Source: a virus. Taken from it: a DNA stretch of 64,000 nt. Position 1 is the first letter of the stretch, and every line of letters starts with the position of its first letter. The notes beneath the pieces are model-generated. The model ran no database searches, was not told where the DNA came from, and worked only from the letters and a program-made list of their open reading frames with translations. The position numbers were made by a program, and so were the translations under genes. Below are positions 6,371 through 56,139 of this stretch, piece by piece. The stretch spans positions 1 through 64,000 of the IMG/VR virus record IMGVR_UViG_3300037560_000207; one strand, 5' to 3'.

Positions 6371-6390
6371 TATAAAATAATTCCTTTTAA

Positions 6391-6736
6391 TGGAGACGCG
6401 GGGAATTGAACCCCGGTCCAGCGATAAAATTCAATAATACTTCTACGTGCATAGTTGATTATTTAAATCTCGGAGCCACAAACGCCAACCAACAGGCTTT
6501 TATTTTTCCACATCAGACTATTATTTCATATTGATCCGGTCGAATATCAAATCAACACTAGCCCACTGCCATCGTCAATCAGAATAGTAGGCGTCTTCCA
6601 ATTAACGGACTGCTTAAGCAGCCATTTTTAAACGAGCTTCGCCGTTTAAGATTATCGCCAGTTTTTTAACGAGGCCAACTGACAACCTCGGCACGCAACA
6701 TCACTTTCACTTACCCTGTCGATTCCTATCGTCCCC
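6391..6736 (-). ncRNA. ssrA: transfer-messenger RNA (tmRNA)
   Basis: 346 nt. The 5' end GGGGACG pairs with the 3' CGTCTCC plus discriminator A, keeping the G3-U70 wobble that specifies alanine. The 5' region has the family's ATAGGAATCGACAGGG signature and the 3' end has T-arm CCGGGGTTCAATTCCCCG. The internal frame ends GCT GCT TAA and reads AIILNGEARLKMAA, a plausible degradation tag with the expected -AA terminus; the exact resume codon is inferred. CCA is not encoded. It lies 4 bases after the upstream gene, so it is probably processed from the transcript made by the 7437 promoter. Confidence 0.93.
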
Positions 6737-22376: not shown

Positions 22377-24149
22377 TTATAGGATTAAAGTGTACCTGTA
22401 TTTATGACCTAATGGAATACGAATCCATCCCCGTTCTTGGGCTAATTCTCGTTCGGTTTTATCTATATTTTTGATTCTCCTACATGATGATTTATGCATT
22501 AATTTTAATGCTAATGGATCAAAATATGCATAACTTGGTTGTGTCTTTCCGGCTTTGTCCCATTTAGCCATTCTGTAAACACCACCATTGTGTCCAACGG
22601 ATGAATCAGCAAACGATATAAGTTTTTTAATTTGTGTATAGTTATCTCTTATATATTGACAGCATTGATTAAGAAAATCACAACTAAAGGGACGCACGAC
22701 ATAGAAAGGAATGCATAAACGTGTAAGCTCCCAAGTGTTTTTCTCTATATACTTATTTGTTCCAATTCCGAAAGTGGCTATTCCGATAATTATATTACCT
22801 CTTTTGGCCACTAAAATAAGTTTTGATCCAGGAAGAGTACCTAAATAATGCTCGTATCTTATGATTTGTCGTATTTCTTTGGTAGCTGAGGCTTGTATAT
22901 AATACTCGATAGGTTGCAATTGGCCATTATCATCAAATAATTGGAAATCATTATGTGTTAAATCACTGCGTTTAATAGCGAAATCTGGATATGCTTGCCA
23001 TATTTTCCACCAAGGATGTGCTTGTTCCAACTTCCCCTCTTCTATTTTGTCATGCTCTTCTTTTGAAATAACCAAACTATTATTCGCATCATAAAATCTT
23101 GGATCATTTATAATAGCTAAATTGCGATATTCATCTAATAATGGGGAATGTTTTGTAATTGATGACCGTAATATAACATGAAATGGATAAATATGATGAC
23201 AATTTAATTCTCTAATTTGTTGATCAGAAATTTCGCTTTTATATTGTTGTCTGGAAAAAGCATCTGTACGCCACTGTGAAGAAGCAGCGCAACTGCGTAC
23301 AGCATTGCGAATATCGGTTACACCACCTTTCCAGGAACCATTATTTTCACCGATATTTTTTCTTCGTTCTTTTCCAATTGCTATGAATCTTTTTAATACA
23401 AATTGAGAACTTTTATTAAAATAAGCAGAAATTTTCTCACACGACCAACCACATCCGTCATATAGGTGAATTAATTGTTCATCTGGTATTTCATCGCTAC
23501 CTCTCCACAATCTAGCCCCGCCAGACACTGTTCGTGTTCCACGACCAGATTTTTTAAGATGTTTTTTAACAAATCCATGGCTCTTTCCTAATTTTTTAGC
23601 AGTTTCAGCGATACTTAATTTTTGGTTCCAATATAAATCGATTATCTTCACATCATCAACGGATTTATCTGTTTGTTGTTCGCCAACAGAACGAATTTTA
23701 ATACCATTTTGCTTTAATCTACGACGGATAACAGAACTACTTACTCTAAATTGTTCTGCACATGCCGTAAGGCTCAATTGTTGCTCTAGATACAAAGTTA
23801 ATAATTTTATTCTATCGATTGGTATTGTTCTTGAAATTCCACCGACCCTGAGTAATTTGACTCCAGCTTCTTTGAGTTTCTTTTGGACCAAGGAAACAGA
23901 AATATTATATGTTTTGGCTATATTTTTGGTGGACATTTTGTTAGTCTCATAATCATATTTAATTCTATCTGAATCGATCGTACTAGGAGCTTGTCCTTGC
24001 GGTCTCAACGGGATTTTGGCTTCCTTGAATCTATTGATAATTGTTTGAAGATGGACTTTAAATATTTTTGCTATTTGCGACGTTGATAAGCCATCATCTT
24101 TATATAATATAGAAGCTTTCTCTAGGTCAAATTGTTTTCTATGAGCCAT
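22377..24149 (-). CDS. HTH-array + HNH + Mom-like GNAT fusion, 590 aa
   Basis: Residues 1-265 hold five helix-turn-helix repeats (LSTSQIAKIFKVHLQTII, MSTKNIAKTYNISVSLVQ, LSIAETAKKLGKSHGFVK and others). About 275-385 is an HNH-type segment (ELNCHHIYPFHVIL, NNSLVISKEEHDKIEE). The C-terminal about 200 residues (YEHYLGTLPGSKLILVAKRG, ELTRLCIP, SFADSSVGHNGGVYRMAKW) resemble the GNAT-like Mom fold of phage Mu, which modifies DNA adenines. It has its own promoter (24172) and lies outside the capsid operon terminators. It is probably a mobile endonuclease; what the Mom-like part does is unknown. Confidence 0.75.
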   Translation of the reverse strand: MAHRKQFDLEKASILYKDDGLSTSQIAKIFKVHLQTIINRFKEAKIPLRPQGQAPSTIDSDRIKYDYETNKMSTKNIAKTYNISVSLVQKKLKEAGVKLLRVGGISRTIPIDRIKLLTLYLEQQLSLTACAEQFRVSSSVIRRRLKQNGIKIRSVGEQQTDKSVDDVKIIDLYWNQKLSIAETAKKLGKSHGFVKKHLKKSGRGTRTVSGGARLWRGSDEIPDEQLIHLYDGCGWSCEKISAYFNKSSQFVLKRFIAIGKERRKNIGENNGSWKGGVTDIRNAVRSCAASSQWRTDAFSRQQYKSEISDQQIRELNCHHIYPFHVILRSSITKHSPLLDEYRNLAIINDPRFYDANNSLVISKEEHDKIEEGKLEQAHPWWKIWQAYPDFAIKRSDLTHNDFQLFDDNGQLQPIEYYIQASATKEIRQIIRYEHYLGTLPGSKLILVAKRGNIIIGIATFGIGTNKYIEKNTWELTRLCIPFYVVRPFSCDFLNQCCQYIRDNYTQIKKLISFADSSVGHNGGVYRMAKWDKAGKTQPSYAYFDPLALKLMHKSSCRRIKNIDKTERELAQERGWIRIPLGHKYRYTLIL

Positions 24150-55796: not shown

Positions 55797-55894
55797 GAAG
55801 GTGGTAGTTTAATTGGTAAAGCAGCCTATATCCTGATATAATCCTATCGGATCAGGGTGTAAGCAATCGCGGGTTCGAGTCCCGTCCACCTTCT
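55797..55894 (+). tRNA. tRNA-like gene with oversized anticodon arm
   Basis: Acceptor GAAGGTGG/CCACCTTC, D-arm GTTT-AATTGGTA-AAGC and T-arm GCGGG-TTCGAGT-CCCGT are all canonical. Between D and T arms, where about 22 bases are usual, are 45. GCCTATATCCTGAT pairs with ATCAGGGTGTAAGC (13 of 14 pairs) around a 13-base loop. With a standard five-pair stem the loop would be 31 bases and lacks U33. No normal anticodon can be assigned. It may carry a short insertion, be a pseudo-tRNA, or be a tRNA mimic. Confidence 0.7.
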
Positions 55895-55950: not shown

Positions 55951-56139
55951 ATGAAACGAATAAATATTAAAGGGACTTGTGGGGTGTGTGGTGAGGAACG
56001 TGATACGTTTGTTTCTGCCAGTAATGTCGATGCTGGCCCGTGGACGTGTGAGAATTGTGCCAAAATCGTAGGTCAATACCTTGCAATGACTGGATACGTT
56101 CTGGTTCTTCCTGTGCCAAATCCCGATACTGTATATTAA
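55951..56139 (+). CDS. small zinc protein, 62 aa
   Basis: GTCGVCGEERDTFVSASNVD, GPWTCENCAKIVGQYLAMTG: two CxxC pairs of one zinc ribbon. RBS AAAAGGAGAACTATA. The 61502 protein has the same layout, so this is a small paralogous family in the right arm. Confidence 0.68.
   Translation: MKRINIKGTCGVCGEERDTFVSASNVDAGPWTCENCAKIVGQYLAMTGYVLVLPVPNPDTVY

Follow-up and report, generated by a model that had tools for sequence, protein, structure and literature searches.

The tRNA-like gene and its genomic setting

The window (the whole stretch of 64,000 bases analysed here) is part of a 181,360-base viral record, G000, in which a phage terminase and a portal are present, and it contains the tRNA-like gene listed with its parts and neighbours in Table 1. 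Compared with named phages, the portal matched only Bacillus phage G (two records, 22% identity), and the terminase matched 41 records, all at less than 60% identity. Besides the element, the record has ten Rfam tRNA matches. A phage tmRNA is found on the minus strand at 6388–6736 (Rfam) or 6391–6736 (ARAGORN), with the predicted tag GEARLKMAA; it is the one tmRNA that ARAGORN reports in the window, and the element is not recognised as a tmRNA. Among Rfam models the element matches RF00005 best (weaker matches within that clan are not displayed). Two further observations concern other genes. In the ORF at 22377–24149 (minus strand), the part near the start matches HNH endonuclease families and the end a Mom-like DNA modification family. 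In the relatives L017, L019, L020 and L022 the longest open frames at the terminase locus have 848–1324 amino acids, vs 718 for the gene in the window; at a guess, these possibly contain inteins.

Table 1. Positions of the element, its parts and neighbours in the window, and of the odd-armed genes of the phage clade.
Feature	Position	Strand	Basis or remark
tRNA-like gene, 97 bases with G-1	55797..55893	+	Rfam tRNA match 55798–55893 and sequence
Acceptor stem, 5' strand, G-1 and 7 bases	55797..55804	+	8/8 pairs with 55886–55893
Acceptor stem, 3' strand with C73; CCA absent from the gene	55886..55893	+	Sequence
D arm GTTT-AATTGGTA-AAGC	55807..55822	+	4/4 pairs, one G-U
Rebuilt anticodon arm	55824..55864	+	Strands 55824–55837 and 55851–55864, loop 55838–55850
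T arm GCGGG-TTCGAGT-CCCGT	55869..55885	+	5/5 pairs, one G-U
62-aa ORF between the two tRNA genes	55951..56139	+	ORF list; tie to the element putative
Ordinary neighbour tRNA, CAT anticodon	56148..56220	+	ARAGORN; Rfam, 74.8 bits
Odd-armed clade genes 1–7	G000:55798; G004:50350, 50636, 60303, 116609; G011:37282; G014:4842		
Odd-armed clade genes 8–14	G029:162976; G030:47756; G031:33165; G034:110361; G040:70875; G045:176753; G046:164904		G034:110361 borderline (7-base loop, no U33)

The neighbours of the element are not conserved. The 62-aa ORF, 57 bases from the element, matches only itself (26 other records searched up to E = 1), and an 87-aa neighbour protein has two weak matches, one elsewhere in G000 and one, interrupted by a stop, in G011. 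No homologue of the element, with an ordinary arm or otherwise, was found among the viral contigs, the related records and the clade bodies: a 25-base exact pattern gave no match in the viral contigs, and a search of 25 related records gave five short matches of 17–32 bases in three records. There is consequently no covariation for the element's own arm.

Anatomy and fold

Read from the sequence, the acceptor stem AAGGTGG/CCACCTT is paired at all seven positions and is extended by G-1 (position 55797), which lies opposite the discriminator C73 (55893). The T loop (TTCGAGT) is standard, and the body has the acceptor, D and T arms of a tRNA. The anticodon arm GCCTATATCCTGAT/ATCAGGGTGTAAGC is paired at 13 of 14 positions, with one C-A mismatch and two G-U pairs, and closes on the 13-base loop ATAATCCTATCGG; a 5-pair stem with a 7-base loop and U33 is absent. 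If the stem is restricted to five positions, a 31-base loop results, whose second base is A and which hence lacks U33. The initial annotation had described intact acceptor, D and T arms, the 13-of-14 pairing with its loop and the missing U33 under a standard stem, and our direct reading agrees with it on each of these points; of the span it gave (55797–55894) the start stands, and the gene ends one base sooner, at C73. Judging from tRNA geometry, an arm of 14 positions would hold no loop at the usual distance for reading codons.

The element scores 39.8 bits with the Rfam tRNA model (gathering score 29), and default ARAGORN reports no gene there. Its minimum free energy is −36.9 kcal/mol (z −4.69), which none of 200 shuffles equalled; the arm region alone gives z −3.68 (p 0.007, 300 shuffles), and 13 of 14 arm pairs were reached in only 8 of 400,000 shuffles. 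In the minimum-energy fold the top of the arm is closed differently, via a small inner hairpin of three pairs, and the open 13-base loop is thus one of two predicted drawings of the arm top. A promoter-like site at 55813–55842, within the element, is one of five in the region, where shuffles average 6.8. The structure of the element is real, and it has no usable anticodon.

Odd-armed tRNA genes in the phage clade

Loci of the clade were gathered by terminase and portal searches (25, 69 and 79 loci, overlapping), and Rfam tRNA searches were run on 25, 24, 28 and 12 records. The resulting sample comprises 157 tRNA matches, 11 of them from the window's phage; outside it are G001:153437 (beyond the stretch fetched), G017:98208 (partial) and seven matches from the 12-record search. 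The controls are 209 tRNAs from 14 named phages picked from search hits, i.e. 214 Rfam matches minus two tmRNAs and three truncated or partial matches; the whole control records have 227 matches, a few of which lie beyond the fetched stretches or under the gathering score. Most of the clade matches are ordinary tRNAs. An odd arm was flagged by the looser of two scripts in 21/157 clade matches vs 4/209 controls (p=1.6e-5) and by the stricter one in 32/157 vs 13/209 (p=4.4e-5). None of the four controls flagged by the looser script has an enlarged arm, and by the same script all 31 control tRNAs of at least 76 nt have a canonical 7-base loop.

Counted by eye, 14 distinct clade genes combine good outer arms with an odd anticodon arm (Table 1). 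From the 21 matches flagged by the looser script, 12 were counted, two are exact duplicates (G046:58193 and G032:33160) and seven were dropped (G001:57299, G007:62080, G016:14063, G040:61454, G040:57028, G048:10832 and G048:7683); G004:50350 and G004:116609 were added from the stricter script only, and the final choice was made by eye. The remaining 141 ‘ordinary’ matches still hold the dropped genes. Among the latter, G040:57028–57124 (in L172) has an ordinary 7-base loop with GAT and, in our own reading, an apparent hairpin insert in the D loop.

Taken together, the arms of the 14 fold better than their shuffles (Fisher p=1.2e-5), on a score to which a normal 5-pair stem would also add, and four of them show no such effect (p>0.5). 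Default ARAGORN overlooks seven of the 14, the window's element and six more. At the other seven it calls tRNAs (Asp gtc twice, Ala cgc, Gly ccc, Thr tgt, Cys aca and one undetermined). G-1:C73 is present in two of these seven genes, some of which may be mildly irregular tRNAs, not mimics. No shared sequence was recognisable when the 14 odd arms were compared by eye. The clade body nearest to the element is only weakly similar to it (score 30.2), so the odd-armed genes appear to be independently derived, and their recurrence across the clade speaks against a one-off accident.

Conservation could be compared for one pair other than the window's gene. L405 and L406 carry the same gene, which has G-1 and C73 and in which no anticodon stem can be recognised. 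It is 92% identical over 125 bases, vs 68% (542 bases) and 71% (211 bases) downstream, the only side compared because of where L405 begins. Conservation above that of the flanking sequence is common for tRNA genes. Six pairs of duplicate records are identical along the aligned stretch, as are L399 and L408, and so carry no information on selection. Separately, the related viral contigs L192, L403 and L404 have a common tRNA-like gene with a loop region of 19–20 bases, in whose stem one pair appears changed on both sides (AGGGA/TCCCT to AAGGA/TCCTT). Other viral contigs (L207, L208, L209, L216 and others) contain, by eye, a tRNA whose anticodon position reads TAT and whose variable arm is long.

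The acceptor pair G-1:C73

The eighth acceptor pair of the element is the bacterial tRNA-His identity pair, G-1:C73. Within the clade this pair is found in 5/14 odd-armed genes vs 1/141 other matches (p=1.6e-5), a contrast noticed after looking. C73 occurs in six of the 157 clade matches, each time with G-1: the five odd-armed genes and G048:12639, which has a GTG anticodon. The GTG tRNAs of G001, G016 and G041 are ordinary and lack C73; the histidyl-tRNA synthetase (HisRS) of the hosts may therefore not read C73. Among the 209 control tRNAs, G-1 is found together with C73 in five, four with a GTG anticodon and one that is not His.

Because the contrast had been noticed after looking, viral contigs fetched by pattern were taken as a second sample, with at least 84 distinct hits in at least 124 loci, classified automatically. 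The 84 matches listed comprise 30 odd-armed, non-restorable genes (five with G-1:C73), seven genes restorable by excision (none with G-1:C73), nine with a weak acceptor, six fusions or sequences with N, and 32 canonical ones with a long variable region, the last class being permissive: L201, restorable by the excision test described below, is in neither of the first two. That test restores L203 (p=0.007); the classification rule does not. Among the matches listed, and with the clade member L183 removed, G-1:C73 is found in 5/29 odd-armed genes vs 5/209 controls (p=0.003), and C73 is present in all five of the 29 with G-1 vs 2/24 without it (p=1.8e-4). One of the five viral-contig genes with the pair, L278, is called by ARAGORN (Val tac); its removal leaves 4/28 among the matches listed (p=0.013). 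A-1:T73 is also in excess there (5/29 odd-armed vs 2/209 controls), so the eight-pair acceptor, and not histidine as such, may be the common factor.

A choice by eye gave 38 viral-contig genes, six of them with G-1 and C73. A scan restricted to C73 gave 17 stretches, which partly overlap the earlier ones; G-1 is present in 11 (nine without the duplicates L407 and L408), two of which, L178 and L251, have weak acceptors. ARAGORN calls L399 as tRNA-His (atg). The clade portal profile had no match in 13 other records tested, several of which are short. The element belongs to a recurring group of genes marked by a distinctive acceptor.

Recovery of an anticodon by excision

The initial annotation had suggested that the arm could hold a very short insertion to be excised, which would make the element a tRNA whose insert is removed and whose ends are rejoined. 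For 65 sequences, each compared with 300 shuffles, we listed all single excisions after which the arm and the variable loop would be normal. The best excision in the element gives two of five pairs and the loop TTCAGGG, which 68% of shuffles match (p=0.68); no single excision rebuilds a canonical arm, and a 7-base loop with GUG is absent both from the unaltered element and from every one-excision product with a paired stem. The earlier statement that the element has no usable anticodon holds after single excisions as well. The test has power, since clear positive cases emerge in other tRNAs: among the matches listed, seven of the 84 viral-contig genes regain a perfect arm on removal of an insert, and L351 and others hold removable inserts. 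Repair of the element RNA by RtcB was rejected, as RtcB was found in only one of the 27 records searched (G048) and not in the element's own. An excisable insertion is accordingly very improbable for the element, and the suggestion is abandoned.

The inserts themselves are an observation in their own right. An insert of 39–42 bases lies between positions 28 and 29 in L351, L361, L370, L385 and L387 (Lachnospiraceae and Acetatifactor MAGs), L352 (Fluviicola), and L238 and L232 (viral contigs). Its removal gives a perfect 5-pair stem and ordinary 7-base loops with differing anticodons (equalled by none or one of 300 shuffles). The five Lachnospiraceae-type inserts have a hairpin and a CAGCAA motif in common, and are possibly an undescribed small tRNA intron.

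Interpretation

Phage tRNAs are usually seen as decoders, or as substitutes for cut host tRNAs, and phage tRNAs are reported to evade tRNA-cutting defences. A recurring set of non-decoding genes that retain the acceptor, D and T arms would form a distinct type of phage RNA, of which we recognised no description in the titles and opening lines of abstracts of the open-licence PMC literature.

Our preferred reading, a tentative one, is that the element mimics a tRNA without decoding, with an acceptor of histidine type and a putative role. It would have kept the shape of a tRNA, with its elbow and its acceptor, D and T arms, and given up decoding, the anticodon arm turning into a stiff hairpin and the acceptor gaining the eighth pair. 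We infer that the element is transcribed, cut by RNase P and given a CCA end by the host, and that its RNA is bound by proteins reading the acceptor end and elbow, probably HisRS where the host enzyme reads G-1:C73. According to excerpts of PMC9976931, G-1 and C73 are, with the anticodon, the bacterial histidine identity elements, and micro- and minihelices with G-1:C73 are charged by HisRS; both bases are missing in some alpha-proteobacteria. The RNA would occupy or mislead enzymes that read the acceptor or elbow, and would stay out of translation. In its most concrete form it would be a decoy against host defences attacking the acceptor end; Cas12a3, as described in an excerpt of PMC12851939, cuts tRNA tails via the acceptor stem and T arm. 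This decoy role is a guess, and not a likely one. A decoy for anticodon nucleases, as proposed initially, is improbable in that form, since the loop cut by such enzymes appears to be missing; one for enzymes binding the acceptor end or elbow is possible. We regard as doubtful the wider claim that tRNA mimics lacking an anticodon, with an acceptor of eight pairs that is often of histidine type, form a class found in several phage lineages.

Decay is a serious rival, since no homologue of the element was found: a tRNA gene, perhaps once a tRNA-His, may have lost its arm to insertion or hairpin expansion and be degenerating. The tRNA sets of the clade vary much between records, the odd-armed genes have unrelated bodies, degraded forms exist (e.g. 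G007:62080, of 65 nt, and the partial G040:61454), the Rfam score of the element is low and its neighbours are not conserved. Half of the 14 genes are called as tRNAs by ARAGORN, as mildly damaged genes would be, which slightly lowers our confidence in a mimic and raises that in decay, a distinct possibility. Against decay are the fully paired acceptor, D and T arms, an arm pairing improbable by chance, the number of odd-armed genes in the clade and the conservation of the L405/L406 gene above its downstream blocks.

The element could also use a tRNA shape as a carrier for its hairpin, which would then be the active part, e.g. a protein-binding or antisense element. The arm is long and stable, and engineered tRNAs tolerate hairpin aptamers (excerpt of PMC7590224), but the 14 arms lack a recognisable common sequence, and the element's own genome has four matches of 11 bases complementary to the arm and none of 12, about chance by estimate; antisense action on that genome was rejected, and we consider a carrier improbable. 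The proximity of the next ORF, and a likely ribosome-binding site directly after the G045 element, would fit a processing signal, in which RNase P and 3' trimming free a small downstream mRNA while the arm drifts. Drift leaves the lengthened, well-paired arm unexplained, and these two elements are the cases looked at, so that a processing signal also has little probability.

Comparison with known systems

The element resembles bacterial tRNA-His in its tRNA body and in G-1 paired with C73, and differs in having neither the GUG anticodon nor a 7-base loop, and in its arm of 14 positions. With defence-evading phage tRNAs (excerpts of PMC11555353) it shares phage encoding and a possible tie to host defence; those tRNAs act with their anticodon, unlike the element, and a change of anticodon abolished the protection. 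Bacterial Y RNAs, named in PMC12282133, are likewise non-coding tRNA mimics, as proposed for phages too. A Y RNA/Ro system was rejected for the element: Ro (TROVE) protein was found in none of 27 records, G000 included, many of which are possibly fragments. The aptamer-tagged tRNAs in the excerpt of PMC7590224 also have a hairpin within a tRNA, and there G-1:C73 confers histidine identity; they are engineered, carry the hairpin in the variable arm and retain decoding. The tobamovirus tRNA-like structures are viral tRNA mimics as well. They are histidylated according to excerpts of PMC8157909, whereas for the element histidine acceptance is only suggested by G-1:C73, and they form the 3' ends of RNA genomes, whereas the element has genuine D and T arms and is encoded by a DNA phage as a gene of its own.
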